Translations under genes and position numbers: made by a program
Notes under the pieces: model-generated
Database searches by the model: none
What the model was told of the DNA's origin: nothing
The model's input: only the letters and a program-made list of their open reading frames with translations
Part shown: in pieces, positions 13,300 to 45,425 of the stretch
How the letters are laid out: every line of letters begins with the position of its first letter
Numbering within the stretch: position 1 is the stretch's first letter
Source of the DNA: an uncultured Maricaulis sp.
GTDB taxonomy: Bacteria; Pseudomonadota; Alphaproteobacteria; Caulobacterales; Maricaulaceae
DNA: 64,000 nucleotides
Direction: 5' to 3'
Assembly (NCBI RefSeq): GCF_947259345.1
Contig: NZ_CAMYLS010000001.1
Coordinates: 1 to 64,000 of the forward strand

Positions 13300-13304
13300 A
13301 TCCG

Positions 13305-27569: not shown

Positions 27570-29519
27570 CTATTCCGTCTCGACGTAATGGTAGACGTGC
27601 TGGCTGTCGCGCGCGGTGAGCGTGCGGGCACCGTCTTCTTCGCCGACCTCGGCTTCCAGGTGAATCACGCCTGGTCCGACCGAGACGATCGAGACCGTCC
27701 CGTCCGGGTTGGCGCGGGTGGCCAGCGGCGCGCGTATGGATCCGGCCTCGACCCAGGTCTCGCCATCCTGCTCAAACACTGTGATCGTACCGGTGCCCGG
27801 GCTTTCATAGCGGGTGGCGAGATTGTCGAGGATCGCCGGGTCGCCGGGAATGTCCAGACCCTGGCGCCTGACCTGTGATTGAGCCTCAAGGCGGGCGGCC
27901 GCGGCCTCGACCTGGCTCATGGCTTCGGGATGGCCGTCATAGAGGACTTCGACCAGGCGTCGCAGGAATGGGCGCAACATGACAGCGCCGGTGTCGGCAT
28001 TGGTCAGGATGACTGCACCCACACCGGACTCGGGCAGCGCGTACCAATTGCTGTGATATCCCGATAGCGTGCCGCCATGGGTGACCACCGGGATGCCCCA
28101 ATGCTCTTCGTCGAACAGGCCCATGCCGTACCAAACGCCATCGGCAACCTCGACGCCCCGTTCGCGGCGCGCGAGGAGGTTTTCCTCGCTGACCAGGCGT
28201 TCGCCGTCAGGTGTCAGGCCGCGTGACAGTTCGAGCTGAACATAATGCGCCATGTCCGATGTGGTGGAGAAAGCGCCGCCGGCCGGGCGATAGGGGAAGA
28301 CCGCCTGGTTGAAATGATTGGTCATGACGGTTTGCTCGCCATTTACATTCAGACCGTGGGGTGGTGCCCAGTTCCCGGTTTCGCCGGTGTCGAAATCAAA
28401 GGTCGTGTCGAACATGGCGAGCGGCTGGAATATCAGCTCGTCCATGGCGCGGTCATAGGCCGCGCCAATTTCCATGTCCGGATAAGCCAGTGCGCCGCCG
28501 ACATAGCCAGCCGCCGCGGCCATGTTGTTATTGTACTGGAAGAGCTCGCCGAACGGGCTGGTCGGCTCGGTTTCCGACAATTGCCGGAATACATCCGACG
28601 CCGGCGTGTCCTGGTCGGCGAGAATAAAGCCCCAATCCTTGCGTGGCAGACCTGTGCAGGCGCAAAGGAGGTGGCGGACCAGGGTGGATTCGGTGGTGCT
28701 GTCTGATCCGAGGCGGAAGGACGGGTAGAGATCAACCACAGGCTGGTCCCAATCGAGCAGGCCCTGGTCGACCAGGATGGACAGGAGCAGGGTCGACATG
28801 CCTTTCGTGTTGGACGCAATCATGAAGCTGGTATCAGCGTCGACGGGTTCAGGCTGACCGAGCGAGCGGACGCCGACGCCGCCTTCATAGACGACTTCAC
28901 CCTGGTCGATGAGCGCGAAGCCGACCCCCGGCACGTCCAGCCGTTCAGCGGCCTCCTCAACGAAATCGCGTAGCAGGGCGATGCGTTCGGGTGTCAGGCG
29001 ATGGGCAGTCTGACCGGAAAAGTCCTCCGGCGCATAGCCTTCAGCCTGGACGGATTCGCGCGCCTGTGACACGGCGGCCGAGCGGATATTGGCGGTCGAC
29101 TGGGCCCCGTTGACGATCAGGACCGTCCAATCATCGCCCTGGCGTAAAGCCATTGCGTTTACGGTGGCCTGTTCGGAGGGCGAGGTCGCATAGCTGATGC
29201 TGACCCGCTGGTCCCAGCCATTCTCGGATGCGGCTGGCGTTGTCAGTTCGACCGTGCGCTGCGCGTCCGGGTCATAGACCTGCCAGGCGGCGCGGGCGGC
29301 CGCCAGGGCATTCTCGGCCTCGCCGACCGCGATAACAGCAATGTCGAGATTGCCTTCCGGGGCGGTGATCACGGCGAGGTTGCCGCGCTGATCCAGCGTC
29401 CACTCTTCCGGCTGGGCGATGGAGGGCGCATCGGCTGGCTGCGCCAGTGCCGGCCCGGCGAGCCCGGCCGTCATGAGGGCGATGGCAGAGACAAGTGTTC
29501 GAACGGTCGGCAGGGACAT
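27570..29519 (-). CDS. Exported serine hydrolase with N-terminal extra domain
   Basis: A 649-residue beta-lactamase/DD-peptidase-fold hydrolase with a signal peptide (residues 1-26, ending ALA). The catalytic SxxK is S236-NTK239 (FMIASNTKG), the YxN-like motif is QYNNNM and the third motif is THGGTLSG. About 180 residues precede the catalytic domain, an unusually long extension that may be a separate beta-rich domain. A C-terminal ~110-residue domain follows. Members of this family include D-aminopeptidases, DD-carboxypeptidases and esterases. Cluster context favours cleavage of D-residue peptides, by inference. GAGGAG precedes the ATG. Confidence 0.85.
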   Translation of the reverse strand: MSLPTVRTLVSAIALMTAGLAGPALAQPADAPSIAQPEEWTLDQRGNLAVITAPEGNLDIAVIAVGEAENALAAARAAWQVYDPDAQRTVELTTPAASENGWDQRVSISYATSPSEQATVNAMALRQGDDWTVLIVNGAQSTANIRSAAVSQARESVQAEGYAPEDFSGQTAHRLTPERIALLRDFVEEAAERLDVPGVGFALIDQGEVVYEGGVGVRSLGQPEPVDADTSFMIASNTKGMSTLLLSILVDQGLLDWDQPVVDLYPSFRLGSDSTTESTLVRHLLCACTGLPRKDWGFILADQDTPASDVFRQLSETEPTSPFGELFQYNNNMAAAAGYVGGALAYPDMEIGAAYDRAMDELIFQPLAMFDTTFDFDTGETGNWAPPHGLNVNGEQTVMTNHFNQAVFPYRPAGGAFSTTSDMAHYVQLELSRGLTPDGERLVSEENLLARRERGVEVADGVWYGMGLFDEEHWGIPVVTHGGTLSGYHSNWYALPESGVGAVILTNADTGAVMLRPFLRRLVEVLYDGHPEAMSQVEAAAARLEAQSQVRRQGLDIPGDPAILDNLATRYESPGTGTITVFEQDGETWVEAGSIRAPLATRANPDGTVSIVSVGPGVIHLEAEVGEEDGARTLTARDSQHVYHYVETE

Positions 29520-29529
29520 AACGGACTCC

Positions 29530-31017: not shown

Positions 31018-31048
31018 GAGGCACGTTTCCTGTTGGCTGCGGGCGTGA

Positions 31049-32608
31049 TCAGTCGGGTTGCTCGATGCGGCGGACCGGCCGTCCTGGCAGAACGGCAGTG
31101 TCGAGTTCGCCGCCGCTGACCAGCACTTGTCCGCCGACGATCACATATTCAAAACCAACCGAGGTTCGGGCCGGTTCGGCATAGGTCGAGCGGTCGCTCA
31201 CCATCGCGAAATCGAAGATGACGATATCGGCGTCGGCGCCCTCCTGCAGGCGGCCCTTGAGCGCCATTTGCGGGACGGCGTCCTCAAGGATTTGGGCCGG
31301 GATCAGGCTCACCTTGGCGAGTGCGTCGCCCAGGCTGAGCGATTGGCTCTCCCGCACATAGATACGCAGAAACCGGGAGAACGTACCTGCACTGCGCGGA
31401 TGCGATTCCGCATCCGCCGGCAATGGCCAGACATTGTCGCCGACGGGGTCTCCATGCTGGCTCCATCCGCCGCCATCCGAAGCGATGGCACCGCCGGGAA
31501 ACAGGATGGACTGGGCGAGGATGGCCGCGTCTTCCGCATTATTGTCCGGGTCGATGAAGTGCACGACAATATCCGTATTCGGCTCCTCCGCCTGAAGGCG
31601 ATCGAACTCCGCATCACTCAGCGGCACACCGTCGAGGGTAAAATCGGATTTTTCGATATCACCCAGGCGTGCCTGCCAGGTCTCGCCTTCAAAAAGGGCG
31701 GTCCCGATGGCCGTCGAGCCCGCACCATAGGGGTAGGCCTCCACCGAGATATTCACGCCATTGGCCTGGGCGCCCTCGATCATTGGACGGATCTCGCCGA
31801 TATCGCGAATGCTGATACTGTTGAGGTGGGAGATGTGCATGTCGGCGCCTGTGGCGGCCGAGACGGCAACCATCTCCTGGAAGCCTTCCAGCGAGCTGTC
31901 GGGCTCGATATTCGACAGATAGCGGGCATGGGTGAAGGTCGGCACATCATGCGCGGCCGCCACCTCGTGAAGGGAATAGTACTCCATCCGCCCGGAGCCC
32001 GGCACGTAGCCAAGCAGGACGCCAATGCCCAGCCCGCCCTCTTCGAGGCCCGTCTCGACACGCTCCAGGACCTGCCGGGTTTGCGCCGGACTGGCGGGGG
32101 TATAGCGCCAATCCGGCGCATCCGGGTCCGGAGAGAAGGAGTCCCGGAATGAGAGCGGTTCATAGCCGGTCAATTCGGCAGAGCGCGCTCGCAACCAATT
32201 CACTGATGCACCGTAATTGATCGGCCGCCCTTCGGCTTCGGCGGTGTTGTAAAAGTCGGCGACCGGATAGACTCCGGATTCCAGTTCCAGCGCGGTCGTG
32301 ACGCCATCGAGCGCCTGGACGCGCCCGGCGAGCACGGACTGGCCATGGGCGTGCAGATCGATAAAGCCCGGCGCCACAACATGGCCCGATGCGTCGATCA
32401 TCTGATCGCCGTGGATCATGTCGCTCGTGATCTCGACAATGCGGCCATCGCGGATTCCGACATTGAGGACGGCGTCGAGCCCGCTTTCCGGATCGATCAC
32501 ACGGCCACCCATGATGGCGAGGTCGTGGCTTTCGTCCGTCGAGGCGGGCTGGGCGCACGCGGCGGACAGACCGGCAAGGATAAAGCAGAAGGGTAGCATC
32601 TTGATCAT
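31049..32608 (-). CDS. N-acyl-D-amino-acid deacylase-like amidohydrolase (lipoprotein)
   Basis: A 519-residue amidohydrolase-superfamily enzyme, similar to D-aminoacylases that release D-amino acids from N-acylated forms. The metal-binding HxH is at His86/His88 (GFIDLHAHG), with later THARYLS, HISHLNS and a final ASDGGGW acidic segment. The position occupied by the metal-bridging cysteine in D-aminoacylase (GNCG) reads ELESG here (Glu108/Glu110), so specificity may differ. The N-terminus (LAGLSAAC) looks like a lipoprotein signal, placing it in the periplasm. It is upstream of two serine hydrolase genes on the same strand. Confidence 0.82.
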   Translation of the reverse strand: MIKMLPFCFILAGLSAACAQPASTDESHDLAIMGGRVIDPESGLDAVLNVGIRDGRIVEITSDMIHGDQMIDASGHVVAPGFIDLHAHGQSVLAGRVQALDGVTTALELESGVYPVADFYNTAEAEGRPINYGASVNWLRARSAELTGYEPLSFRDSFSPDPDAPDWRYTPASPAQTRQVLERVETGLEEGGLGIGVLLGYVPGSGRMEYYSLHEVAAAHDVPTFTHARYLSNIEPDSSLEGFQEMVAVSAATGADMHISHLNSISIRDIGEIRPMIEGAQANGVNISVEAYPYGAGSTAIGTALFEGETWQARLGDIEKSDFTLDGVPLSDAEFDRLQAEEPNTDIVVHFIDPDNNAEDAAILAQSILFPGGAIASDGGGWSQHGDPVGDNVWPLPADAESHPRSAGTFSRFLRIYVRESQSLSLGDALAKVSLIPAQILEDAVPQMALKGRLQEGADADIVIFDFAMVSDRSTYAEPARTSVGFEYVIVGGQVLVSGGELDTAVLPGRPVRRIEQPD

Positions 32609-32652
32609 GAAGGGACTCCTCGCGGCGTCGAAATTCCGGCGTCGGTTGCTGT

Positions 32653-34212
32653 CTATTGTTTGGTGAAGTGCAGGTCGCCGAAGTCGAAGGAGAAATCGGT
32701 CGTGTCTGAGACCGGCTCCATGGTCATGCCTGTGACCTGACCGTCTACAATGATGAAGTCGGCATAGGCGTCGGCATTGAGGCTGCGGTCGGGCCAGCGG
32801 GCCACAAAGCGGTCCGGGGCGACCGGGACAAGCGGTGCGTCGAGGACCTCGGAGCGGCTCATATCGATGAAGAGCCCGCCATTCCTCATCTCGATCGACA
32901 CGGCACCATACCAGGGATCCATATAAATGCCGGTGTAGGCGGTGAGATCGCGAACCGGTTCGATCGCGACATCCGGCTGATCGCCCGCGCCGGAATCCTG
33001 AACCGCCATTTCCTGACTACGCGTATAAACACCGTGCAGCACACCGATCCAGTCAGCGGCCTCATCACCCGCTGCGGCTTCCGCCAGCAATTGGAGGGCG
33101 AGCGCTGACGACGCGTAAGTCGAGACATTGGAGCTGACGAAAACGGCAATATCCTCTTCCGGCAGGAGCCCGAAATAGGACGAGGCGCCCAGCAGGCCGC
33201 CGCTATGGCCAACCATCAGCTGGCCGTGGAAGTCGCGCAGCGTCCAACCCAGCCCGTAGAGCGAGAAATGCGTGCCGCCGAGCTGTTGCAGAAGTGGGCT
33301 CACGCCCTGTGGCGTAACGCCGGTCCACAACTCATTGACCTGAGCCTCGGAAAGCAGACGCGTGCCGTCCTCGGCAATCCCTTCATTGAGCCAGAACTGG
33401 GCCCAGATGGAGAGGTCGTCGATCGAGCAGCTGATGCCGCCGGCCGGCGATGTGCTGTCACCGATAATATAGCGCGGATCAATCGGCGCGGCGTCGGCAA
33501 CGCCCGGCGGCCGTGAGTGCTGGGTGATGGTGTTGTCATCAGCTGCCGCAACGCTCGGGCGGGCCTCGCAACTGTCCATCGCGAGCGGATCGAAAATGCG
33601 CGCGTCGAGTACATCGGCCCAAGCCTCGCCCTCGACACGGGCCACGACTTCGCCGGCGATGATGTACATCAGGTTGTCGTAGGCATATTCCGACCGGAAA
33701 CTGGTGGCCGGCGGGATATGGCGGATGGCGGCCAGAATGTCGCTGACTTCGGGCTTGCCGTCCGGGAAGACAAGAAGGTCTCCGGCGCCGAGCGGCAGGC
33801 CGGACCGGTGGGTGACCAGGTCGCGGACGCTGAATTCCGCCGTGATATAGGGGTCGGACATGGCGAATTCCGGGATGTAGTCGCGCACAGGTGCGTCCCA
33901 GTCGACACGACCCTCATCGACCAGCATGGCGAGGGCTGTCGTGGTGAAGGCCTTGCCGATCGATGCAAAGGGAAACAGCGTGTCGGTGTTGACCGCGGTG
34001 TCCGGGTCGCGAACATCGCGAACGCCATAGGTCCGGGTCAGGATGACATCATCGCCTGAGACGACGGTGACGGCCATGCCGGTGACATTGAAGGAGTCAA
34101 CAGCCTGGCGGGCTGCTTCGTCAATTCGTTCCGCTGTGAGTTCCTGGGCCGAGGCGGCTTGGCCGGCCAGCGCCATCAGGGTCGCGGCTGTCGCGAGCAG
34201 AATGCGTTTCAT
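32653..34212 (-). CDS. Exported beta-lactamase-family serine hydrolase
   Basis: A 519-residue SxxK hydrolase with signal peptide ending AASA. Active-site motifs are S84-IGK87 (FPFASIGKAFTT), YDNLMY and GHSGGLLG (HSG instead of HGG). The remaining ~150 C-terminal residues form a separate beta-rich domain. The ATG at 34212 has an excellent GGAGGG site. The gene lies between the dipeptidase and amidohydrolase genes on the minus strand with short gaps, so it is probably part of one operon reading from 35438 to 27570. Confidence 0.86.
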   Translation of the reverse strand: MKRILLATAATLMALAGQAASAQELTAERIDEAARQAVDSFNVTGMAVTVVSGDDVILTRTYGVRDVRDPDTAVNTDTLFPFASIGKAFTTTALAMLVDEGRVDWDAPVRDYIPEFAMSDPYITAEFSVRDLVTHRSGLPLGAGDLLVFPDGKPEVSDILAAIRHIPPATSFRSEYAYDNLMYIIAGEVVARVEGEAWADVLDARIFDPLAMDSCEARPSVAAADDNTITQHSRPPGVADAAPIDPRYIIGDSTSPAGGISCSIDDLSIWAQFWLNEGIAEDGTRLLSEAQVNELWTGVTPQGVSPLLQQLGGTHFSLYGLGWTLRDFHGQLMVGHSGGLLGASSYFGLLPEEDIAVFVSSNVSTYASSALALQLLAEAAAGDEAADWIGVLHGVYTRSQEMAVQDSGAGDQPDVAIEPVRDLTAYTGIYMDPWYGAVSIEMRNGGLFIDMSRSEVLDAPLVPVAPDRFVARWPDRSLNADAYADFIIVDGQVTGMTMEPVSDTTDFSFDFGDLHFTKQ

Positions 34213-34244
34213 TATGTCCCTCCGGGCGCCTGGGGCGCCCTCAT

Positions 34245-35438
34245 TCATGATGTCCAGATATTGCCCAGGGCGCGTCTGAAATTGCCGCCAAGGACCAACT
34301 CGATATCGGCATCGGAATAACCGCGCCGGATCAGGCCTTCGGTCAGATCGAAAATTTTTCTCGGGTGGTCAAAATCATCGGTGTCGATGCGTCCACGGAA
34401 GGCGTAGGACTCGTCATAGCCGCTGCGCAGGCGCTCATAGGCCGCTGGTGGCACGTCATCATAGCCATCCGCGTCCATGTCACTGCCGATGCCGACATGT
34501 TCGATGCCGACCAGATTGGCGACATGGTCATAATGGTCGAGCAGATGCTCGATCGTTGTGGGCTCGCGGTCGCGGACGAAATTGCGAACACCGGTTATCC
34601 CCATCACGCCGCCGGCCCGGGCCATGGCGCGGATGGCTTCGTCGGACTTGGCGCGAGGATGGTTGCCGGCCAGTGCCCGGACATTGGAGTGGGTGATCAA
34701 GGCCGGCGCGCTGGAAAGCTCGAACGCGTCCAACGTCGTCCGGTCACCACAATGCGATACGTCGACCGCCATGCCGACTTCGTTCATGCGTTCGATGATG
34801 GCGACGCCGAAGCGGCTGACCCCGCCATCCACGCGTTCGGTGGCGCCGCTGCCAATGCGGTTCTGGGAATTATAGGTCAGCTGGCTGACGCGCTGGCCGA
34901 GATTGTAGAATTCATTGACGTCGTTGGGTGAATTGAAGTGGTGAGCATTCTGGATTCCGACGATATAGCCGATCCGCCCCTCATCCTGGATTTGGTCGAG
35001 GTCCGATACGCCATCAATTCGCCGGAACACGTCCGGTCGCTCTGCCGCGTAGGCATTCATGCGCGCGACAAAGCTCAGGGCGCTTTCGCGGCCCCCCAAA
35101 CCTACGGCCGGATGGAAGACATTGATGCCCGAGGCGCGCAGCTTTTCGAGATGAGCGTCGGTGATGGCATAGCCGTCCTGCAACGCGGGCTGCGCGCTGT
35201 AGCCGGCTTCCAGCATGTCCCCGAGATCAGCGAGGATGGAGAGCATGTCGATCACCAGGCTGCGTTCGACGAGCTCCAACGTGCGCGTGGAATAGGTCGT
35301 CGCGGAGTCGGCGAACACTTTGAAATGTCCCGAATTCAGCATCGGAGCCGTGACCGCAGCGGCAAGCCCGCCTTTCAGGAGGCGGCGCCGGGTCGAGACT
35401 GGTTCACGCCTGGCTTTGGTTTGGTGATCCTGCTTCAT
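34245..35438 (-). CDS. Peptidase M19 (membrane dipeptidase) homologue, Tat-exported
   Basis: A 397-residue protein of the renal/membrane dipeptidase family, with a twin-arginine signal (STRRRLLKGGLAAAVTAP). Family segments present include VDVSHCG (His229), ITHSNVRAL (His250), RVSQLTYNSQN and GIGSDMD. However, the usual DGHND metal motif reads IDMLS (from Asp64) and the bridging-glutamate motif GIEGG reads GIQNA (Gln163). Two or three expected zinc ligands are therefore absent. It may bind metal differently or act only as a binding protein. It heads the minus-strand operon, divergent from the GntR gene. Confidence 0.82.
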   Translation of the reverse strand: MKQDHQTKARREPVSTRRRLLKGGLAAAVTAPMLNSGHFKVFADSATTYSTRTLELVERSLVIDMLSILADLGDMLEAGYSAQPALQDGYAITDAHLEKLRASGINVFHPAVGLGGRESALSFVARMNAYAAERPDVFRRIDGVSDLDQIQDEGRIGYIVGIQNAHHFNSPNDVNEFYNLGQRVSQLTYNSQNRIGSGATERVDGGVSRFGVAIIERMNEVGMAVDVSHCGDRTTLDAFELSSAPALITHSNVRALAGNHPRAKSDEAIRAMARAGGVMGITGVRNFVRDREPTTIEHLLDHYDHVANLVGIEHVGIGSDMDADGYDDVPPAAYERLRSGYDESYAFRGRIDTDDFDHPRKIFDLTEGLIRRGYSDADIELVLGGNFRRALGNIWTS

Positions 35439-35498
35439 GTTGACGGCTTCCTCACACGCGTTTTCGCGATTACGCTAGCCGAAAGGGATTGGACAATA

Positions 35499-35520
35499 CA
35501 GCCTTAATTTCTAATAAGGC
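35499..35520 (-). promoter_or_regulatory. Operator candidate: AATTAAGGCTG and GCCTTA-N8-TAAGGC
   Basis: The minus strand carries AATTAAGGCTG (35509-35499), 60 bases before the dipeptidase ATG. It overlaps an inverted repeat GCCTTA/TAAGGC with an 8-base spacer (35501-35520). The same 11-mer occurs on the plus strand ahead of the TonB-dependent receptor (36503-36513). The divergent GntR-type regulator gene starts 77 bases away and is the natural candidate to bind it. Inferred. Confidence 0.5.
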
Positions 35521-35596
35521 GTCCATAAATGACGGGCAAGCAGGCAGCAGGCGTGTATACGGCTGCATAAATGTCAGGAATGAGGCGGTTATCGGC

Positions 35597-36310: not shown

Positions 36311-36502
36311 CGGCCCGGGCGACGAGACTGTCCTGTCTGATCGCGGTCGATGTGGCCGCGGTCGGCGCGTGCTCGTGTTTCATTTAATGCTGCTCTTACA
36401 AAGCGTTATGGAGGGCGTGTGCCTTCGCGGCAACAAAATGCGCCGCTTCTGGAGAATGCGAGAACACATGACTTCCCAACTCGGTATGGCTGCGTTAGGG
36501 TG

Positions 36503-36513
36503 AATTAAGGCTG
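36503..36513 (+). promoter_or_regulatory. Second copy of AATTAAGGCTG before the receptor gene
   Basis: The 11-mer AATTAAGGCTG lies 47 bases before the receptor ATG and is followed at once by CTATACG, a possible -10 element. In the dipeptidase upstream copy the 11-mer is likewise followed by TATTGT. Either a common promoter element or a shared operator is possible. Confidence 0.5.
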
Positions 36514-36560: not shown

Positions 36561-38900
36561 ATGTCTAGCCAATTCAAGATTGCTCTGCTTGCAAGCGTGG
36601 CGTTTACGGCGCCAATGGCCGCTCAGGAAGGTGACCAGGCCAGCGACGAGACGGACGTCATGCGCGATGTCATTACCGTGACCTCGCGTTTCCGCGAGGA
36701 GTCCGTGCAGGATATCGGGGCCAGTATTGCCGGTATCACCGGTGAGGATATGCGGGTACGAGGCATTCAGGATATTGAAGATCTCGCACGCGCTGTGCCC
36801 GGCATGCAAAATGTCAAAACGCGCCAGAACTCCAATGATATTGCCATTCGCGGCGTCCGCAGTGCCGGCAGCGGGTATGAAACCAGCACCGTCTTCAGCG
36901 TCTTTCTGGACGATGTGTCAGTTACCGGCTCTGGCAATATCCGGGACTTCAGCTCCGCCGACCTGAACCGGGTCGAGGTCATCCGCGGGCCGCAACCCAC
37001 CCTTTTTGGTGAGGGCGCTGTCGGCGGTGTGATCCGCTATTTCACCAATGACCCGGACCTTGATGGTCCTACGGTGACCGGCCAGGCCAATGCCCGCATT
37101 GAAACGATTGAAGATGGTGGCATGGCCTATGGCGTCGAGAATGCCACATCCTTCATCTTCGTTCCGGGCGAGCTCGGCCTTCGGGTCTCGGGCTTCCGCC
37201 GCGAGGATGACGGCTTCATCGACAATCCGAGTGAGGGCGAGGACGTCAATGATTTCGAGACCGTGGGTGGTCGCGCTGTTCTGCTGGCCCGCCCGACCGT
37301 CAATCTCGAACTCCGTCTCTCCGCCTTCCTGTCGCGCGATGAAATGGGCGAATCCACCCAGGTGGATCCGGGCTCCGACCCGGAAGACCTGACCTTCAGT
37401 GCCTCGCCGCGCTCGGGCAGCTATACCGATGATTTCGATCTCTATTCCGGTCGAATCTCGTACGATTTCGACGGGCTCGAACTGACTTCGGTCACAGGCT
37501 ATTACGAGCGCCGCAACGCGTCGGCCCTTTTCAGCGCGGGCAATTCATTCGGTCTCGCGCCCTTCTTCCCGACGGTCGACACCACAACCTTCTCGACGGG
37601 TTCCGGTGAGTTCGAGCAATGGTCCCAGGAATTCCGTCTGGTGTCCTTCCTCGATGGTCCGCTCAACTATACGGCGGGCGCCTATTACCGTGACCGGTCA
37701 GAAACCAGCGGCCAATTCCTGACCTGTGCCGGTTGCGTCACGGTCACAACGCCGCAAACGCCCAATCTGGCGACCCGCCTGGCGGAAACGCAGACCGAGC
37801 AATACTCGGCATTTGCGGAGTTCACCTATGATGTCAGTCCGGACCTCCGGCTGATTGGTGGCGCGCGCTACGTCAATGACACGGTCACGGCCACCCTTCT
37901 CCAGGATAATGTCGTGAACCTGGTCCCGCAGTTTGACGGTGGCGGCAATCTTGTCCCCTGGACAGAAGCCAATCCGATCGACTTCGTCAGCACGCTGGCG
38001 GTTCTGCAGGGCGCCGGCGTCGGCACCATCTTCGAATTCCAGCTCGAGGAATTCCTTCCGCGCTTTGGGGTCGAGTATAATCTCAATGATGACGTGCTGC
38101 TCTATGCCAATGTTGCCCGCGGCGCCCGTAACGGTGGCATCGGCAATGCCATCGCCGCGCTCGGCGCATCCGGCGGCAACCAGGATGTCTTCCTCGCCAA
38201 TCTCACCTTCGACGAGGACTCAGTGCTCTCGATCGATGGCGGTGTGAAGGCCGCCTGGCTGGGCGGTGACCTGATCACCAATGTCGGTGTTTTCAGGACG
38301 ACATATGAAGACACCCAGATCGGGGTCAACACACCGGCCAACAATACCATCAACGGACCCGAGCAGACCATTGTCGGCATGGAGCTGGAATCGTCCTATC
38401 AGGTGACTGACAGCCTCTCGGCCTTCCTCAACATGTCGGTGATTGATGCCGAGTTCGAGGACGGGATGGTCATCACGTCAGCTCCCGGGGGGGCGATCGG
38501 TCCGTTCGATCTCCAAGCTGGCAATCGTCCGGCCAATATTCCGGAATTCACCATGTCGATGGGCTATTCCTATTCCCGCTCTCTGGGCGCGAATGGCTGG
38601 ATGCTCAATTCAACCGGTTCTTTCCAGTATATCGGCGAGCGGTTCTCGAACGTTCAGAACTTCCAGTCGGCGGAACTTGATGCGCTGGAGAGCCTCAATC
38701 TGAACGTCGATATCTCGAACGATGTGTGGTCGATCGGCCTGTTTGGCACCAATCTGCTCAACGACATCGAAGCCGTCAGTCTGGCGTCCAACCCGCTGCA
38801 GCAATTCGTGACCGCGGGTGGAGCGCTCGATGCACCGATCATCGCGACGAGCGTCAATCGTCCGCGCACGATCGGTATGCGTGCGAGCCTTCGCTACTAG
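36561..38900 (+). CDS. TonB-dependent outer-membrane receptor
   Basis: A 779-residue TonB-dependent transporter with signal peptide (LLASVAFTAPMAAQ). A TonB-box-like DVITVTSR is followed by the plug domain (DIGASIAGITGEDMRVRGIQ; NDIAIRGVR; NRVEVIRGPQPTLFGEGAVG GVI), and then a beta-barrel ending in the aromatic RASLRY terminus. It energises uptake of a substrate across the outer membrane. The neighbouring peptidases and D-glutamate genes suggest peptidoglycan-derived or other D-amino-acid peptides rather than siderophores, which is inference. A GGGAGG site precedes the ATG. Confidence 0.93.
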   Translation: MSSQFKIALLASVAFTAPMAAQEGDQASDETDVMRDVITVTSRFREESVQDIGASIAGITGEDMRVRGIQDIEDLARAVPGMQNVKTRQNSNDIAIRGVRSAGSGYETSTVFSVFLDDVSVTGSGNIRDFSSADLNRVEVIRGPQPTLFGEGAVGGVIRYFTNDPDLDGPTVTGQANARIETIEDGGMAYGVENATSFIFVPGELGLRVSGFRREDDGFIDNPSEGEDVNDFETVGGRAVLLARPTVNLELRLSAFLSRDEMGESTQVDPGSDPEDLTFSASPRSGSYTDDFDLYSGRISYDFDGLELTSVTGYYERRNASALFSAGNSFGLAPFFPTVDTTTFSTGSGEFEQWSQEFRLVSFLDGPLNYTAGAYYRDRSETSGQFLTCAGCVTVTTPQTPNLATRLAETQTEQYSAFAEFTYDVSPDLRLIGGARYVNDTVTATLLQDNVVNLVPQFDGGGNLVPWTEANPIDFVSTLAVLQGAGVGTIFEFQLEEFLPRFGVEYNLNDDVLLYANVARGARNGGIGNAIAALGASGGNQDVFLANLTFDEDSVLSIDGGVKAAWLGGDLITNVGVFRTTYEDTQIGVNTPANNTINGPEQTIVGMELESSYQVTDSLSAFLNMSVIDAEFEDGMVITSAPGGAIGPFDLQAGNRPANIPEFTMSMGYSYSRSLGANGWMLNSTGSFQYIGERFSNVQNFQSAELDALESLNLNVDISNDVWSIGLFGTNLLNDIEAVSLASNPLQQFVTAGGALDAPIIATSVNRPRTIGMRASLRY

Positions 38901-38917
38901 GCAATCTGTTGGGCTTT

Positions 38918-38947
38918 GCCCGGCGAAACCTTCGTGTTCCGCCGGGC
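38918..38947 (+). terminator. Hairpin after the receptor gene
   Basis: GCCCGGCG (38918-38925) pairs perfectly with CGCCGGGC (38940-38947). A second small palindrome CCCGCTGAGCGGG follows at 38954-38966. There is no T-tract, so this may be a weak terminator or an mRNA-stabilising structure separating the receptor from the permease genes. Confidence 0.45.
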
Positions 38948-39030
38948 ATGCCGCCCCGCTGAGCGGGTGCGACGTCACCCGTGTGACTGCAGCCGCCTGA
39001 CTTCATTCAATGGGCCGCCCGGAAAGCGTG

Positions 39031-40149
39031 ATGAGCAGCTTTTTCAGAACATATCTATTGCCCGGACTGGTGTTCCAATCCGTCATTATCGGTGGCGGTT
39101 ATGGCACCGGACGAGAGATCGCCGAGTTCTTCCTGTCGCATGGCGCGGTGGGAGGCTTGGCCGGCTTTCTGGTAACCGCCGCGGTCTGGGCGGTGCTCCT
39201 GGCATTAGGTTTCGAGTTTGCCCGCCTGACCAAGGGGTATGACTACCGGACCTTCTTCAAGGCCTTGCTGGGGCCGTTCTGGCGCCTGTTTGAAATTCTC
39301 TACCTCCTGATCGCCCTGCTGGTCTTGTCGGTGCTCGGATCCGCTGCCGGTCACATGGTGGCCGAGGCCTTCGGTGTCCCGACCATGGTCGGGGCGCTTG
39401 GGCTGCTATTGGCGATCGGGACATTGGCCTTTTTTGGCAGCACGGCTATCGCCCGGATCATGGCGTGGTGGTCGGGGCTTCTTTATGCGCTTTATGGTGT
39501 TTTCTTCGTCTATGTCTCTGTCTCCTATGGCGATGCGATCACGACGGCGCTGGCGACCGGGCAAAGCGAAGGGGCCTGGTTGCTCGATGGTGTCCGCTAC
39601 GCCGCCTATAATCTGATCGCTTTCGCCGCCGTTCTGTTCGTCTTGCCGCAACTGAAGACGCGGCGCGAGGCGTTCACCTCCGGCGCGCTGGCCGGCTTGA
39701 TCAGTGTTGTGCCGGGCATCCTCGTCTTTCTGGCGATGCTGGCCCGTCATCCTGAGATCCAGGACCAGGCCGTTCCCGTCGTCTATCTCCTGCAGATGCT
39801 GAATGCGGTCTGGCTGAGCATGCTCTTTCAGATCGTCCTTTTCGGGACCTTTGTGGAAACCGGGGTCGGCATCATTCACGCCATCAATGAGCGGATCGAG
39901 ACCGCGCTGAAGGTCGGCGGCCGCCGCTTTCCGCCCCTGGCCCGCTTTGGCCTGGCGGTCGGATTGCTGGCAACCGCGATCTTCCTCGCGGAAGCGATCG
40001 GCATCATAGACCTGATCGCCAGCGGCTATGGCGTTCTGTCGTACGCGTTCATCGCGATCGTGGTGCTGCCCCTGCTCACGCTCGGTGTTTTCAAAATCGC
40101 AACGACCCCAAAAAATGAAGTGGAGGACTCCCATGTCGCTCGCCAGTAG
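39031..40149 (+). CDS. YkvI-family inner-membrane permease
   Basis: A 372-residue membrane protein with about ten hydrophobic helices. The N-terminal GLVFQSVIIGGGYGTGREIA EFF with conserved glycines is typical of YkvI/amino-acid-permease-like proteins (APC superfamily relatives of LIVCS and GerAB types). A role in importing D-glutamate or small peptides is inferred from the genes that follow. The ATG at 39031 has GGAAAG upstream; an ATG at 39010 would add seven residues. Its end overlaps dgcN by 17 bases, so the two are cotranscribed. Confidence 0.8.
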   Translation: MSSFFRTYLLPGLVFQSVIIGGGYGTGREIAEFFLSHGAVGGLAGFLVTAAVWAVLLALGFEFARLTKGYDYRTFFKALLGPFWRLFEILYLLIALLVLSVLGSAAGHMVAEAFGVPTMVGALGLLLAIGTLAFFGSTAIARIMAWWSGLLYALYGVFFVYVSVSYGDAITTALATGQSEGAWLLDGVRYAAYNLIAFAAVLFVLPQLKTRREAFTSGALAGLISVVPGILVFLAMLARHPEIQDQAVPVVYLLQMLNAVWLSMLFQIVLFGTFVETGVGIIHAINERIETALKVGGRRFPPLARFGLAVGLLATAIFLAEAIGIIDLIASGYGVLSYAFIAIVVLPLLTLGVFKIATTPKNEVEDSHVARQ

Positions 40150-41221
40150 AACTGAGGACCTTCCCAGCCCGGTCGCGCGCGATACCGGGCTCGCTGCCGT
40201 GCAGCTGCGCGCGCCCTATCTCATCTATTTCGGCGATGTGCAGGATACCGGGCACGCCAAGACGGGCCTCGGCCTGATCCAGTGGCGCCCGGAAGCCTGC
40301 GCCGGTCAGCTTCGTTCCGATGGGTGCCAGGTCGATGGCGGCCTGGTCGACTTGTCGATCAGCGAGGCGGCCCGAGCGGGTGTCGGATCGATTGTGATCG
40401 GTGTGGCGTCTGAGGGAGGGGGCATTCCGGACGCCTGGGTGGGCGATCTCGCTGCCGCGGCTCGGGCTGGTCTGGATGTTGTTTCGGGCATGCATGTCCG
40501 GCTGGGTGATTTCCCGGGGATCGCCGCTGCGGCCCGGGCCTCGGGCGCGCGGTTGATTGATGTCCGCACGCCGCCGCAACGCCTTCCAGTTGGCACGGGC
40601 GTGAAACGACCCGGAAAACGTCTCCTGACGGTCGGTACTGACTGTGCCGTCGGCAAGAAATACACGGCGCTGGCGATCGAGCGGGAAATGCGAAATCGCG
40701 GGCTGGATGCCGATTTCCGCGCCACCGGTCAGACCGGCATCATGATTGCCGGCAGTGGAATTCCGCTCGATTGCGTCATCTCCGACTTCCTGTCAGGCGC
40801 GGCCGAAATGTTGTCACCGGCTGCAGCCGAAACGCATTGGGATGTCATCGAAGGCCAGGGGGCGCTGTCCCACCCAAGCTTTGCCGGTGTGACCCTTGGC
40901 TTGCTGCACGGCTCCCAGCCGGATGCGCTGGTCCTGTGCCATGACCCGTCGCGGGAATTCCTGCTCGGGACCGGCGCAGGGGTCGATTATCCCGTCCTGT
41001 CGGTAACCGACGCGATGGCGCAATGCCTGCCCTTCGCGCGCCGGGTTAATCCGGATGCCTGCTTTGTCGGCCTTTCAGTGAACACCTCGATGTTCGCAGA
41101 AGCGGAACGACAGGCGTTGCTCGACCGGTATGAGCAGGAGACAGGCCTGCCAGCCGTCGATCCGATCAAGGACGGTGCCGGTCTGATTGTCGACAAGGTT
41201 TCTTCGGTAACGGGAGTATGA
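40133..41221 (+). CDS. dgcN: D-glutamate N-acetyltransferase (DUF1611)
   Basis: A 362-residue protein of the DUF1611 family. DgcN transfers an acetyl group to D-glutamate, the first step of the DgcN-DgcA catabolic route known from marine bacteria. The P-loop-like LTVGTDCAVGKKYTAL segment, the N-terminal YLIYFGDVQDTGHAKTGLGL and the C-terminal GLSVNTSMF segment are characteristic. The ATG at 40133 is preceded by GGAGGAC. It overlaps both the permease (17 bases) and dgcA (ATGA). The direct pairing with an epimerase-type enolase makes the assignment strong. Confidence 0.88.
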   Translation: MSLASRTEDLPSPVARDTGLAAVQLRAPYLIYFGDVQDTGHAKTGLGLIQWRPEACAGQLRSDGCQVDGGLVDLSISEAARAGVGSIVIGVASEGGGIPDAWVGDLAAAARAGLDVVSGMHVRLGDFPGIAAAARASGARLIDVRTPPQRLPVGTGVKRPGKRLLTVGTDCAVGKKYTALAIEREMRNRGLDADFRATGQTGIMIAGSGIPLDCVISDFLSGAAEMLSPAAAETHWDVIEGQGALSHPSFAGVTLGLLHGSQPDALVLCHDPSREFLLGTGAGVDYPVLSVTDAMAQCLPFARRVNPDACFVGLSVNTSMFAEAERQALLDRYEQETGLPAVDPIKDGAGLIVDKVSSVTGV

Positions 41222-42201
41222 GTATGCGTGTGAGCGTCCACCGCGAAAGCTGGCCCATGCTGGCGCCTTTCGTGATCACCGGTCATGTTTTTGACAGCCT
41301 TGAATCCGTTGTCGTCACCCTCGAGCAGGATGGCGTCGTCGGGCGCGGGGAAGGCGTGCCGGTTTACTATCTGGACGAGGACGCGCCGGGATTGCTGGAG
41401 CAGATCGAGGCGATCCGCCCGGCTCTGGAAGCAGGGCTGACGCGCGACGCGCTGCAGGACCTGCTGCCCGCTGGCGGTGCCCGCAATGCTGTCGATTGCG
41501 CTCTCTGGGATATTGAGACCCGCAAGACGGGCAAGTCCATCTGGGAGCTGACCGGGATCAAACCGGCTCCCCGGAAGACCGCTTACACGCTGGGCATCCA
41601 GGAGAAACCTGAAATGATGGCGGCCCAGGCGGCCGCAGCCAAGGGCTATTCGCTGATCAAAGTGAAGCTGAATGATGTCGACCCGGTCGAACGCGTCGCC
41701 GCAATTCGCAAGGCGCGCCCGGATGCCGAAATCATCATCGATGCCAATCAGGGCTTCACGATCGACTTGCTAAAATCGGTACTGATTCCCTTCGCGGAGC
41801 TTGGGGTGGCGATGGTCGAGCAGCCTCTGCCGCGTGGCGACGATGCGGCGCTTGAAGGCTTTGTCTCGCCCATTCCCCTGTGTGCGGACGAGAGCTGCCT
41901 TCATCGCGGTGAGCTTGCCACGGCGCTCAAGCGCTACGACATGATCAATATCAAGTTGGACAAGACGGGCGGCCTGACCGAAGCGCTGGCGCTTGCTCAA
42001 GCAGCGCGCCAGGCGGGCAAAGGCCTCATGGTCGGTAATATGCTCGGCACGTCCCTGTCCATGGCGCCAGCATTCGTGATCGCCCAATTGTGTGATTTCG
42101 TGGACCTGGATGGTCCGCTGAACCTTAAATCCGACCTGCCGACCGGCATGGTCTACAGCGGTGGAACGGTCAAAACTCCCCAATCCGGCTTCTGGGGATG
42201 A
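41218..42201 (+). CDS. dgcA: N-acetyl-D-glutamate racemase (enolase superfamily)
   Basis: A 327-residue member of the muconate-lactonising subgroup of the enolase superfamily, related to L-Ala-D/L-Glu epimerases. Catalytic lysines are in LIKVKLN (Lys148, Lys150) and NIKLDKTGG (Lys246). The metal ligands are Asp175 (IDANQG), Glu201 (VEQPLP) and Asp224 (CADES). Next to dgcN it is best read as DgcA, interconverting N-acetyl-D- and N-acetyl-L-glutamate; dipeptide epimerisation of muropeptides remains an alternative. ATG at 41224 has better ribosome-site spacing than the one at 41218. The start overlaps the dgcN stop. Confidence 0.87.
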   Translation: MSMRVSVHRESWPMLAPFVITGHVFDSLESVVVTLEQDGVVGRGEGVPVYYLDEDAPGLLEQIEAIRPALEAGLTRDALQDLLPAGGARNAVDCALWDIETRKTGKSIWELTGIKPAPRKTAYTLGIQEKPEMMAAQAAAAKGYSLIKVKLNDVDPVERVAAIRKARPDAEIIIDANQGFTIDLLKSVLIPFAELGVAMVEQPLPRGDDAALEGFVSPIPLCADESCLHRGELATALKRYDMINIKLDKTGGLTEALALAQAARQAGKGLMVGNMLGTSLSMAPAFVIAQLCDFVDLDGPLNLKSDLPTGMVYSGGTVKTPQSGFWG

Positions 42202-42256
42202 GTGATTGCCGCACCCTTCCTGTCCGGTGTTCCGACCCCGCTAACGAGCCGGGAAG

Positions 42257-43393
42257 ATGATCGCGCCCGACAATGTCTTCGGCCTGCTCGCGGCCCTGCT
42301 CGCCATCTGCGCGATGGCCGCCGGGCTTGAGCGGACGAATTGGGGCAAGCGCCTGTCCGGGGCCGGCATTATCCTGCTCGTCGCCCTGGCGGGAGCGCAG
42401 TTCGGCGTGTTGCCGCGCACCGCTCCGCTCTATGGGGCGATCTGGACCTATCTGGTTCCGCTGGCAATCGCGCTGTTTCTGCTGAAGGCAGACTTGGTCA
42501 AGGTGTTCAGCGAGGGTGGACGGGTCCTGATTGCCTTCCTGATCGGCATGGCCGGGACTGTATTCGGAGCCTGGCTGGCGACGCACCTTGTCGATCTGGG
42601 GGATAGTGAAGCCGCGATCGCTGCCGTCTTCACGGCAACCTATACCGGAGGCTCGCTGAACTTCGTGGCCGTCGCGGAAGCGGTCTCTTTCGATGACAGC
42701 TCACAGCTCTCGGCGGCGCTTGCCATCGACAATATTTTCGGTGTCGGCTTCATCATCATGCTCAATCTGGCGGCGGGCTGGTCGGTCCTTCAGCGCCGTT
42801 ATGGCTGGCGCATGGAGACGGTCCGGCGGGTCGAGCCAGTGGCGGATGCCGGGCCGGATACGCCAATCAGCCTGTTCGGCCTGACCACGGCCCTGGCTGT
42901 TGCGGCGGCCGCGGTGGCACTCAGCGGTCTGGCAGCCGAGGCACTTGGCATCCCGGAATACACGCTTCTCATCATCACGGTTCTGGTGACGGTTGTCGCG
43001 ACGGCCGGGCGGTCCTGGCTGGCGGGGCTGCGCGGTGAGGTCTTGCTGGCGATGATGTTCATGTACCTCTTCTTCGCGATTATCGGCGTTGGCGCGGATA
43101 TCGGTGCGATGCTGAGCGCGGCACCGGGCATGTTCGTGATGGTCGGATGCATCTTCGTCTCGCATCTCGCCTTCATGCTGATCGCCGGCCATGTCCTGAA
43201 GCTGAACTATGCCGAGCTGATTACCGCATCGCTGGCCTGTATCGCCGGTCCGCCCATCGCGGCGGCGATCGCCATCCTGTTCAAATGGCGCAATCTCGTT
43301 GCGCCTGGAATTCTCACCGGAATTCTCGGTTATGTGCTGGGAAATTTCGTCGGGATCGGAATGTTCGCCCTGTTGCAGGGTGGAGCACCGTGA
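42257..43393 (+). CDS. DUF819-family membrane transporter
   Basis: A 378-residue membrane protein with about ten to eleven helices, of the DUF819 (YjcL-like) family of predicted transporters. Characteristic segments are AAIAAVFTATYTGGSLNFVA VAEA and the C-terminal ASLACIAGPPIAAAIAI. It is 55 bases downstream of dgcA in the same direction, so import or export of an amino acid or dipeptide linked to D-glutamate metabolism is likely, but the substrate is unknown. The ATG at 42257 is close behind GGGAAG. Confidence 0.8.
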   Translation: MIAPDNVFGLLAALLAICAMAAGLERTNWGKRLSGAGIILLVALAGAQFGVLPRTAPLYGAIWTYLVPLAIALFLLKADLVKVFSEGGRVLIAFLIGMAGTVFGAWLATHLVDLGDSEAAIAAVFTATYTGGSLNFVAVAEAVSFDDSSQLSAALAIDNIFGVGFIIMLNLAAGWSVLQRRYGWRMETVRRVEPVADAGPDTPISLFGLTTALAVAAAAVALSGLAAEALGIPEYTLLIITVLVTVVATAGRSWLAGLRGEVLLAMMFMYLFFAIIGVGADIGAMLSAAPGMFVMVGCIFVSHLAFMLIAGHVLKLNYAELITASLACIAGPPIAAAIAILFKWRNLVAPGILTGILGYVLGNFVGIGMFALLQGGAP

Positions 43394-43427
43394 CCGTTGT
43401 TTTGGTATCCAAGAGAGGGAGGCTCGC

Positions 43428-45425
43428 ATGCCTTTCGGAACACAGTTGAAGTGGCTGACCGCTGCGCTGGCGGCGCTCAGTTGTGCCTCGGCCTTTGCCC
43501 AGGACACGCCGATCGATCCGGCCGATCCCGCCGTCATCGACGGCGCAGTCGCGACGCCGGAAACGGAGCCTGTCACAGCACCGACCGAAGCCGGTTCGCC
43601 CAGCCTGACCCGCAGCGATGTTGACGCCTGGCTGGACGGCTTCATGCCCTATGCCTTGTCGGAAGGTGATATCGTTGGAGCCCAGGTGACTGTCGTTCGC
43701 GACGGTGAAATCCTGACCAGCCGCGGCTATGGCTATGCCGATCTCGCTGAACGGCGCCCGGTTGATGGCTACGAAACCATGTTCCGGCCAGGCTCGATTT
43801 CCAAGCTCTTCACCTGGATTTCGGTCATGCAGATGGTCGAGCAGGGGCGTCTGGATCTCGACGAGGATGTGAACACCTATCTCGACTTCGAGATTCCCGC
43901 GACCTTCGGCGAGCCGGTTACCATGCGTCACCTGATGACGCACACGCCGGGTTTCCAGGAGCGCTTCCGCAATCTCATCATCGGTGATCCCGAGCTGGCC
44001 CTGCCACTGGAAGATTTCCTGAAGCAGGCGGCGCCGCCTTCGCAGATTTTCCCGCCGGGCGAAACGCCGGCCTATTCCAATTACGGTACGGCTGTGGCCG
44101 GCTATATAGTGCAGCGCCTCGCGGGCCAGCCTTTCGAGGACTATGTCGCCGCGCAGATCTTCGAGCCGATGGGCATGGATCTGGCGACCTTCCACCAGCC
44201 CCTGCCGGAGCGCTTCGAGCCTTACATGTCCAGCGGCTATATCAACGCAGCCGACGGCGAGGCCCAGTATTACGAGCTGGTGCCGATGGCTCCCGCCGGA
44301 TCGATGGCTGCCAGCGGTGAAGCGATGGGCCGTTTCATGATTGGTCTGCTCGAGCGCAATCCTGATGTGCTCGCGCCTGCGACCTGGGAGCAGATGTATG
44401 AGACGACCTACCAGCTGACACCGCCGCTGAATGCGATGGCACTGGGCTTCTGGGAGCTCGACAAGGGCGGTTTGCGCATTCGCGGCCATGGCGGCGATAC
44501 CGGCTTCTTCCACTCCGACCTCAACGTCATGCTGGACGAGAATGTCGGCATCTATGTCGTCGTGAATTCCTCCGGTGCCGGTGCCGGGCCTTTGCGCTTC
44601 GCCGTCACGGCGAGCTTTGCCGAACGCTATTTTCCGGAGACGGTCGAGCCGGTCGGTCCGCGCCTCGAAACGGCGATGGAGCACGGCGCGATGGTTGTCG
44701 GGGAGTATGAGAGCTCCCGCACGGTAGTGACCAATTTCGCCGCCATCCTGCGCTTTCTCGGCCAGGAAAGCATTTCCATGAATGCCGATGGCGATCTCGT
44801 CTACATGATGTTTGGCAAACCCACTGTGTGGCGTGAAGTCGAACCCTTTGTCTGGCGCCATGTTGATGGCTATGAGCAGCTCGCCGCGACCTTCGATGAA
44901 GACGGCACGCTCGCCTATGTCACCTTTGAACCGGTATCGCCGATCATCCATCTGATGCCGGCGCCCTGGTACCGGGCGGGTTCGCTGGTCACGCCGCTCT
45001 TGTTCCTGTCGCTTGGCCTCCTGCTGGTGACGCTGATCCTGTGGCCCGTGCGGGCGATTGTGCGCTGGCGCTACGGGAAAGCCTTTCCGCTCAGCGGTCG
45101 AGAAGCGATGTCCTACCGTTTGGTCCGTGTTGGTATCGCCCTGGTCTTCGTCTTCCTGACGGCCTGGTTCATGCTTTTCCAGACCCTGTTTTCGGATCTG
45201 GCAGGCTTGGGCTCCGGCTTCGGCACCCAGCTCTTCCTCACCATGGCGATGCAGCTTTTGCTCTATATCGCCGTCGCGGCGGCGGTCTGGAATACGCTGA
45301 CCGTCTGGCGCAGCCGCCAGAGCTGGTTCGCCAAGCTCTGGAGCGTCATCATCCCGCTCATGATCCTCTTCGTGATCCTGTTTGCCGGGCTGAATGGTTT
45401 GCTCAGCTGGGAGACGAATTTCTAG
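43428..45425 (+). CDS. Serine hydrolase with C-terminal membrane domain
   Basis: A 665-residue protein with signal peptide, a beta-lactamase/DD-peptidase-fold domain (S123-ISK126, YSNYG, GHGGDTG) and a middle beta domain. Its C-terminal part has four predicted membrane helices (LVTPLLFLSLGLLLVTLILW; VGIALVFVFLTAWFMLF; MAMQLLLYIAVAAAVW; VIIPLMILFVILFAGL). It would display the hydrolase on the periplasmic face of the inner membrane. It is a paralogue of the soluble enzyme at 29530-31017. GGGAGG precedes the ATG at 43428, 34 bases after the DUF819 gene, so it ends the plus-strand operon. Confidence 0.86.
   Translation: MPFGTQLKWLTAALAALSCASAFAQDTPIDPADPAVIDGAVATPETEPVTAPTEAGSPSLTRSDVDAWLDGFMPYALSEGDIVGAQVTVVRDGEILTSRGYGYADLAERRPVDGYETMFRPGSISKLFTWISVMQMVEQGRLDLDEDVNTYLDFEIPATFGEPVTMRHLMTHTPGFQERFRNLIIGDPELALPLEDFLKQAAPPSQIFPPGETPAYSNYGTAVAGYIVQRLAGQPFEDYVAAQIFEPMGMDLATFHQPLPERFEPYMSSGYINAADGEAQYYELVPMAPAGSMAASGEAMGRFMIGLLERNPDVLAPATWEQMYETTYQLTPPLNAMALGFWELDKGGLRIRGHGGDTGFFHSDLNVMLDENVGIYVVVNSSGAGAGPLRFAVTASFAERYFPETVEPVGPRLETAMEHGAMVVGEYESSRTVVTNFAAILRFLGQESISMNADGDLVYMMFGKPTVWREVEPFVWRHVDGYEQLAATFDEDGTLAYVTFEPVSPIIHLMPAPWYRAGSLVTPLLFLSLGLLLVTLILWPVRAIVRWRYGKAFPLSGREAMSYRLVRVGIALVFVFLTAWFMLFQTLFSDLAGLGSGFGTQLFLTMAMQLLLYIAVAAAVWNTLTVWRSRQSWFAKLWSVIIPLMILFVILFAGLNGLLSWETNF

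Follow-up and report, generated by a model that had tools for sequence, protein, structure and literature searches.

A probable D-glutamate-peptide utilisation locus in Maricaulis, built around homologues of dgcN and dgcA

D-Glutamate is reportedly handled by a two-enzyme pathway consisting of the acetyltransferase DgcN and the racemase DgcA. In the excerpts available of two papers, DgcN–DgcA is discussed in Shewanella (PMC10845958), and a Rhodobacteraceae strain in which both enzyme genes are present grows on D-glutamate and peptidoglycan (PMC11747546). Here we describe a locus around homologues of these two genes in a 64,000-nt stretch of DNA from an uncultured Maricaulis sp. (the window: positions 1 to 64,000 of contig NZ_CAMYLS010000001.1, assembly GCF_947259345.1). 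Positions 27570–45425 hold 12 intact genes in two divergent operons. As in the known pathway, the DgcN and DgcA homologues are adjacent and DgcA scores above its curated profile cut-off; the difference is that the pair is embedded here with a TonB-dependent outer-membrane receptor (TBDR), exported hydrolases, a YkvI-like inner-membrane protein and a GntR-family regulator, and that DgcN scores below its cut-off.

A further point of comparison is the ong chitin-oxidation cluster, which in the excerpt available of PMC9537276 pairs a TonB receptor with OngB, a D-aminoacylase homologue. Like the present locus, it is a single catabolic unit with such a receptor, a D-aminoacylase homologue, a regulator and a transporter of the inner membrane, but its enzymes and regulator family are different and its substrate is a sugar acid. 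Among the open-licence papers listed by literature searches, judged by title and the start of the abstract, none describes a locus like the one reported here; the parts are of known kinds, and the conserved, co-regulated whole seems to be undescribed.

Gene set and its conservation

We propose that the region is probably a dedicated, self-regulated and accessory locus for the utilisation of D-glutamate peptides. The proposal is built on gene content, on the conservation of the gene set and of a regulatory-type site, on predicted folds and on the intact motifs of the serine hydrolases and DgcA. An earlier note on this DNA had read the region as a complete route from uptake to catabolism of peptidoglycan or other D-residue peptides. 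Its integration is well supported, because the genes co-occur in a conserved manner, keep their order in a second family and share an operator-like site; peptidoglycan as the source is the more tentative part of that claim and is weighed below.

The receptor, four serine hydrolases (SH1–SH4), D-aminoacylase-like amidohydrolase (DAA), M19 homologue, GntR regulator, two inner-membrane proteins and dgcN–dgcA that the note had named in two divergent operons are all present and intact at the coordinates in Table 1, with families assigned by Pfam and NCBIfam profiles. By coordinate, the minus-strand operon reads SH1–SH2–DAA–SH3–M19, with M19 nearest the centre and SH1 outermost, and the plus-strand operon reads GntR–TBDR–YkvI–DgcN–DgcA–DUF819–SH4. 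The divergent M19 and GntR genes lie 158 bp apart. Within the operons the gaps range from −23 to 109 bp, with the exception of 250 bp between the GntR and receptor genes; YkvI and DgcN overlap by 23 bp, and DgcN/DgcA and SH3/M19 by 4 bp each. The start codons of SH1 and SH4 were reassigned, to 29519 and 43428, and export was judged by eye from the N termini. Scans for sigma-70 promoters and terminators returned fewer sites than in shuffled sequence and were not used.

In 137 genomes of the window's family, Maricaulaceae (which contains Marinicauda), DgcN occurs in 26 (E 1e-20), YkvI in 15 (E 1e-10) and DAA in 15 (E 1e-60). YkvI and DAA are found together in 14 genomes, all 14 with DgcN (Fisher 4.7e-17, uncorrected for relatedness). 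In 13 of these 14 (the window and twelve loci), a single stretch holds a serine hydrolase and a TonB receptor together with DgcN, YkvI and DAA. The fourteenth, G011, has YkvI and DAA next to a DgcN fragment at the end of a contig (L147), and its scored DgcN sits on another contig without YkvI (L049). One further genome (G058) has a lone DAA homologue (40%). Carried as YkvI, DAA and DgcN by 14 of the 137 genomes, the locus is accessory in the family. This bears on the idea that the genes serve to recycle what the cell releases in turning over its own peptidoglycan. Cells do release D-glutamate and muropeptides themselves, but the set is accessory, material from outside is what requires a TonB receptor, and the near confinement of the site described below to the locus suggests a dedicated, substrate-induced system; we regard self-recycling as highly improbable.

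Other members of the set vary more. A close receptor orthologue (E 1e-150) occurs in nine of the 137 genomes, eight times in the locus and once (G059) about 47 kb from its DgcN, and five of the 13 loci have a different receptor (~27% identical). M19 (E 1e-60) is present in seven genomes, in six within the locus and in one (G011) on another contig. DUF819 accompanies YkvI in 4 of the 12 family loci (window not counted), YkvI being the more constant of the two. Within one genus (g6), the receptors of two loci (L039, L040) are ~71–73% identical to that of the window, although their DgcN is ~52% identical, and those of L041–L043 are ~27% identical, although DgcN is alike across L039–L043; because the receptors diverge while the DgcNs remain alike, receptor genes may have been exchanged between loci. 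In L036, two 2-oxoacid dehydrogenase E1 genes directly follow the locus (L036:13405-15658).

A DAA profile search of 150 genomes of the order gave 16 matches, 9 of them outside the family. The five strongest of these nine (56–71% identity) all have DgcN, a serine hydrolase, a receptor and a GntR homologue as neighbours; three also have YkvI (L150, L151, L154). DgcN is near DAA in L151–L154 and in the right flank in G588 (L150). This last genome, from another family, has the same twelve genes as the window, identically ordered, except that an insertion sequence separates M19 from GntR (L150:7684-8912; two transposase-like open reading frames (ORFs), named from reading their sequence). L152 and L118 (Hyphomonas beringensis) probably represent a single record, and L061 is from the same genome as L035.

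Among named genomes, at least 576 DgcN relatives were found and the best 80 examined, so that the counts over these loci are no random sample. YkvI lies near DgcN in 17 of the 80. In the 57 loci flanked on each side by 6 kb or more (9 with YkvI, 48 without; identity limits set by the analyst), neighbours of DgcN were compared by the presence of YkvI: a serine hydrolase was found in 9/9 versus 7/48, a receptor in 6/9 versus 3/48, GntR in 6/9 versus 1/48, M19 in 4/9 versus 1/48, DAA in 3/9 versus 1/48 and DUF819 in 3/9 versus 0/48. DgcA was not enriched (8/9 versus 42/48). Carriers include Parahaliea, Microbulbifer, an Alteromonadaceae metagenome-assembled genome, Kordiimonadaceae and Sphingopyxis; most of the gene set, without YkvI, is present in Hyphomonas, and the culturable Marinicauda pacifica shares the gene order of the window. 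Rearranged or partial versions are found elsewhere in the Alphaproteobacteria and in the Gammaproteobacteria. Among 385 sampled Alphaproteobacteria, DgcN is present in 101 (E 1e-40) and YkvI in five, including the window (E 1e-10). Two variant clusters without DgcN (L141, L142) combine a POT-family transporter, YkvI, S12-like hydrolases and DAA-like genes; L141 adds a DgcA homologue and a cupin-HTH regulator, and L142 a second beta-lactamase-like enzyme.

In a DgcN tree of 108 rows (L061 dropped as a copy of L035; L083 left out as too short), the YkvI-linked label, carried by 28 rows, needs 11 changes, at least 8 of them forced by supported branches, compared with 25 when shuffled (bootstrap not fully settled). 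One clade of 52 rows has no YkvI neighbour at all, and the window's family contains at least two separate YkvI-linked groups.

An operator-like palindrome before both operons

Aligning the divergent intergenic regions of five loci, the window included, gave one conserved block, the palindrome GCCTTA-N8-TAAGGC (site 1), and a degenerate copy (site 2) precedes the receptor gene. These two sites are the two best matches in the window, where four matches at up to two mismatches compare with 0.85 expected. In the 3.25-Mb genome, three places match with no more than one mismatch, and two of these lie in the locus; a reversed control pattern has 15 per strand. The third match (G000 C1:74557) coincides with long ORFs on both strands. 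Receptor-side copies with one or two mismatches are present in L032–L036. The occurrence of the palindrome before both operons is new here.

Upstream of GntR in 14 other loci, a perfect copy was found in 5 of the 14 rows (4 genomes), all among the loci used to read the motif. Copies with two mismatches precede GntR in L078 and L140, and with three in L081, L083, L091 and L096; no site at up to three mismatches was found before GntR in L036, L062 and L118. In L150, a one-mismatch copy lies before M19, parted from the GntR gene by the insertion sequence. A first count, at up to one mismatch, gave 10 matches in the 275 kb of loci that have a GntR homologue versus one in the 1.82 Mb that lack it, but carries little weight alone because all 10 are in Maricaulaceae loci, seven of them in motif-source loci and two in L061.

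In a stricter test, the loci from which the motif was derived were left out, as were L061 and L152, which duplicate L035 and L118. At up to two mismatches, the site was found within 400 bp before GntR in 4 of 13 loci (L078, L140, L151, L154; background 0.6% of windows, binomial 9e-7) and, for receptor genes, within the preceding 250 bp in 4 of 11 (L036, L150, L151, L154; background 0.4%, 8e-8). These probabilities make the case look stronger than it is, since they take no account of kinship and since the background consists mainly of coding sequence, which is probably poorer in AT than promoters. The match in L036 is not fully independent because its receptor-side sequence entered the motif alignment; without it, the receptor-side count is 3 of 10. 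At up to three mismatches, the counts rise to 8 of 13 before GntR (background 8.8%) and 8 of 11 before the receptor (5.3%). We infer that the GntR protein binds this palindrome. Three loci without a GntR homologue that were scanned (L039, L047, L141) have an HTH-cupin regulator in its place.

These results also bear on whether the genes are neighbours by chance and functionally unrelated. Gene order is reshuffled between lineages and single parts are missing in some, as chance would allow, but the genes co-occur repeatedly, keep one order in two families and share the site, which leaves this idea scarcely any credence; it was rejected on co-occurrence, conserved order and the genome-wide rarity of the site.

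Enzymes, membrane proteins and substrate

DgcA scores below the cut-off of the L-Ala-D/L-Glu epimerase model (314.8 versus 343 bits), and its active-site motifs KxK, DAN, E, ADES and KLDK, which mark enolase-superfamily enzymes, are intact. The earlier note's dgcN–dgcA assignment holds in that both genes are adjacent and, on their profile matches, encode convincing homologues, with DUF1611 domains matched in DgcN; it falls short in the equivalog score of DgcN, discussed below. Because these homologues are present, D-glutamate is taken as the end substrate.

The receptor does not reach the curated cut-off of any of the 20 listed NCBIfam families, its top score being on the siderophore-type model TIGR01783 (102.5 bits versus 223.5), and it had no match in plasmids at E 1e-60. 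The protein at 39010–40149, which we take to be YkvI-like, matched no Pfam or NCBIfam family. Its AlphaFold2 (AF2) model (pLDDT 86.3, pTM 0.86) finds AdiC first in Foldseek (E 1.2e-5) and AgcS among the best, with query-length TM-scores of ~0.65, and we predict an APC/LeuT-fold transporter.

All four serine hydrolases foreseen by the earlier note match PF00144 and have intact SxxK, YxN and HxG motifs, the catalytic signature of this class. The AF2 model of SH4 (pLDDT 78.7) has as Foldseek neighbours 2qmi (presumably Pab87), the IS11 esterase, the DL-peptidase Lip3, SurE, an FmtA-like protein, ClbP, a D-aminopeptidase and an alkaline D-peptidase. With the S12-like hydrolases that act on D-residues (Lip3, 9sn1; D-aminopeptidase, 1ei5; alkaline D-peptidase, 4y7p; ClbP) it shares the catalytic-domain fold and the three motifs; it differs in sequence (17–24% identity in the listed fold matches) and in its four C-terminal hydrophobic segments. 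Activity of SH4 on D-peptides is plausible from the model, and the protein is probably membrane-anchored.

The same resemblance to Lip3, SurE and ClbP would suit another reading, in which the locus naturally acts on secondary metabolites with D-residues (non-ribosomal lipopeptides, D-glutamate-containing cyclic peptides) that the hydrolases disarm and from which D-glutamate or D-asparagine is salvaged. The receptor's best score, although below the cut-off, is on a siderophore-type model, and an M81/MlrC-type gene adjoins the YkvI cluster in G107. However, these structural neighbours are common to the S12-like fold generally, and DgcN/DgcA, together with the variant that has a POT transporter and a DgcA homologue, fit short stem peptides at least equally, and we consider secondary metabolites an unlikely substrate class.

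The nearest structure to DAA in the Protein Data Bank (PDB) is 3gip, an N-acyl-D-glutamate deacylase (4e-45 in a profile search, in which 1rjp scores 2e-34). In 15 aligned sequences, the HxH motif, two further His residues, an Asp and the Arg of the HPR region are invariant. The earlier note had called the protein a D-aminoacylase-like lipoprotein; its family is confirmed, but its lipoprotein status, judged by eye from a Cys near the likely signal-peptide cleavage site, is weak and was rejected as a conserved trait because this Cys is found in only 3 of 14 aligned homologues besides the window protein.

DAA is homologous to BbDam, AfDam and PpOngB, and this homology, like the receptor–OngB pairing of the ong cluster, raises the idea that the substrates are N-acyl-D-amino acids or oxidised amino sugars, not peptides. 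Yet the locus contains no kinase, deaminase, RidA or hexosaminidase, has a GntR rather than a MurR/RpiR regulator and carries four S12-type hydrolases; moreover, the DAA N terminus looks exported and its top score is to an N-acyl-D-glutamate deacylase. We judge this idea very unlikely, and an ong-type sugar-acid cluster was rejected on the absence of that regulator and those enzymes from the twelve genes.

For D-glutamate-peptide utilisation, the reading we prefer, the working of the locus might be as follows. The TonB-dependent receptor would take short D-residue peptides across the outer membrane; periplasmic S12-type hydrolases (SH4 among them), the M19 homologue and the amidohydrolase would cut peptide or N-acyl bonds next to D-residues; and the APC-fold YkvI and DUF819 would import D-glutamate or small D-glutamate peptides. 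DgcN would then acetylate D-glutamate with acetyl-CoA, and DgcA would racemise the product to N-acetyl-L-glutamate. The GntR protein would control both operons through the two palindrome copies. We infer the D-glutamate-peptide substrate, the direction of transport, the order of the steps, the binding of regulator to operator, an effector and induction through GntR. Peptidoglycan stem peptides are the most plausible source, favoured because of D-glutamate itself, the D-specific relatives of the enzymes and the POT/DgcA variant.

Several findings weigh against this reading. First, YkvI and DgcN are not strictly paired, as five genomes show: G107 has YkvI with DUF819 and a distant epimerase and no scored DgcN; G150 and G283, also with no scored DgcN, have YkvI with S12-like hydrolases, weak DAA-like matches and a POT-family transporter (G150 also has a DgcA homologue); G252 has YkvI without a scored DgcN and none of the other locus genes nearby; and in G428 YkvI and DgcN are on different short contigs. 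DAA adjoins only the three of nine YkvI-bearing DgcNs counted above, and its four weaker extra-family homologues (36–48%) are not near DgcN. Five of the 13 tested GntR loci have no site at up to three mismatches before GntR, and the site is therefore not universal. Second, DgcN scores under the NF041892 cut-off of 480 bits, as do all four other locus DgcNs tested (451.5–461.5 bits), and the DgcA homologues of three other DgcN-bearing loci reach 361.6, 399.1 and 393.1 bits versus the cut-off of 400. The best fold matches of SH4 include, besides the IS11 esterase, many beta-lactamases.

Third, both metalloenzymes are altered. DAA shares its family and the invariant residues with AfDam/BbDam and PpOngB (PMC12017989, in excerpt), but is apparently exported, lacks the Cys ligand of D-aminoacylases (LELE-x-G replaces the GNCG region, in a column variable among the 15 sequences) and has Asn for a Lys that the excerpt describes as conserved in D-aminoacylases; at the position that would correspond to BbDam Arg295, which is associated with the gamma-carboxylate, Leu was read (counted by eye past the end of the alignment). 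The M19 homologue, which the earlier note had listed as exported, does have a twin-arginine N terminus in 9 of 9 aligned sequences, window included, and resembles the renal-dipeptidase family in its Pfam match and in keeping H229, H250 and D320. The HxD motif and bridging Glu that form the binuclear metal site of M19 dipeptidases are, however, absent in all nine, with Q163 invariant at the bridging-Glu position, and a canonical dipeptidase role was rejected. The solved structure 2i5g, described only as 'amidohydrolase', also has Gln at this place, and from the alignment an atypical M19 subfamily with Gln for the bridging Glu seems to include it. Finally, the twelve genes yield no match to a lytic transglycosylase, amidase or other lytic enzyme family. 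Because no lytic family is present, the hydrolase families include esterases and beta-lactamases, and the two metalloenzymes are altered, the peptidoglycan source is put conditionally here.

Table 1 Features of the locus and the matches on which they were named
Feature	Coordinates	Strand	Basis
SH1, exported serine hydrolase of the class-C beta-lactamase family, 649 aa from MSLPTV	27570..29519	-	PF00144 173.8 bits; SNTK, YNN, HGG
SH2, exported serine hydrolase, 495 aa	29530..31017	-	PF00144 210 bits; best solved relatives 2qmi, 7spn, 4gdn, 9sn1
DAA, exported D-aminoacylase-like amidohydrolase	31049..32608	-	NF006560/PRK09061 643.9 bits, cut-off 340; best PDB match 3gip
SH3, exported serine hydrolase with DUF3471	32653..34248	-	PF00144 212 bits, PF11954 68 bits; PDB 7spn, ClbP, 9sn1
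M19 homologue, twin-arginine N terminus, non-canonical metal site	34245..35438	-	PF01244 242 bits; best PDB match 2i5g
Operator-like site 1, GCCTTA-N8-TAAGGC, divergent intergenic region	35501..35520	.	0 mismatches; kept in window and 4 other aligned loci
GntR/FCD-family regulator	35597..36310	+	PF07729 FCD 38.8 bits; GntR HTH 26.8 bits, just under cut-off 27
Operator-like site 2, upstream of receptor gene	36492..36511	.	1 mismatch
TonB-dependent outer-membrane receptor (TBDR)	36561..38900	+	PF00593 103.7 bits, PF07715 62.8 bits
YkvI-like inner-membrane protein, predicted APC/LeuT-fold transporter	39010..40149	+	AF2 model and Foldseek
DgcN homologue (D-glutamate N-acetyltransferase)	40127..41221	+	PF07755 231 bits; NF041892 445.5 bits; PDB 7xrj E 9e-101
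DgcA (N-acetyl-D-glutamate racemase, enolase superfamily)	41218..42201	+	NF042940 420.3 bits, cut-off 400
DUF819 inner-membrane protein	42257..43393	+	PF05684 181 bits; 11 hydrophobic segments
SH4, serine hydrolase domain then four C-terminal hydrophobic segments	43428..45425	+	PF00144 197 bits; segments ~517-664

Neighbouring genes and significance

Directly to the left of the locus, positions 21690–27260 (minus strand) encode proteins resembling MzaC and MzaD of the MZA anti-phage system, both scoring below the curated cut-offs (375.5 bits versus 1500 for MzaC, 70.8 versus 420 for MzaD); a neighbouring gene encodes a 629-aa protein without family assignment. Farther left, 7877–20946 contains a serine recombinase (8295–10031) beside tRNA-Ser (7877–7966), a ParB-N/N6-N4 methylase and a C5 methylase. 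This stretch looks like a defence-bearing genomic island that ends before the D-glutamate locus; a tRNA-derived repeat marking island ends was looked for in the flanks and none was found. To the right, 46339–48435 (minus strand) encodes a tetratricopeptide-repeat protein that carries a glycosyltransferase-41 domain, and a methyltransferase gene comes next.

Read more broadly, and tentatively, since we would put this wider view at a little short of an even chance, the locus may represent a horizontally shuffled, self-regulated D-glutamate-peptide system comparable to a polysaccharide-utilisation locus. It would then offer a first substrate class for the YkvI family and include both an atypical M19 subfamily whose metal site is reduced and exported relatives of D-aminoacylases that form a new clade, under one GntR regulator with an operator common to Alpha- and some Gammaproteobacteria.

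To our knowledge, the entry of D-glutamate peptides into cells is poorly known. D-Amino acids are important components of deep-sea refractory dissolved organic matter, according to the excerpt available of PMC12363236. The locus offers a defined gene set, a predicted operator and a candidate receptor and transporter, and uptake of D-glutamate peptides therefore becomes directly testable; it also suggests a function for two membrane-protein families that lack one in Pfam, YkvI (no Pfam match) and DUF819.

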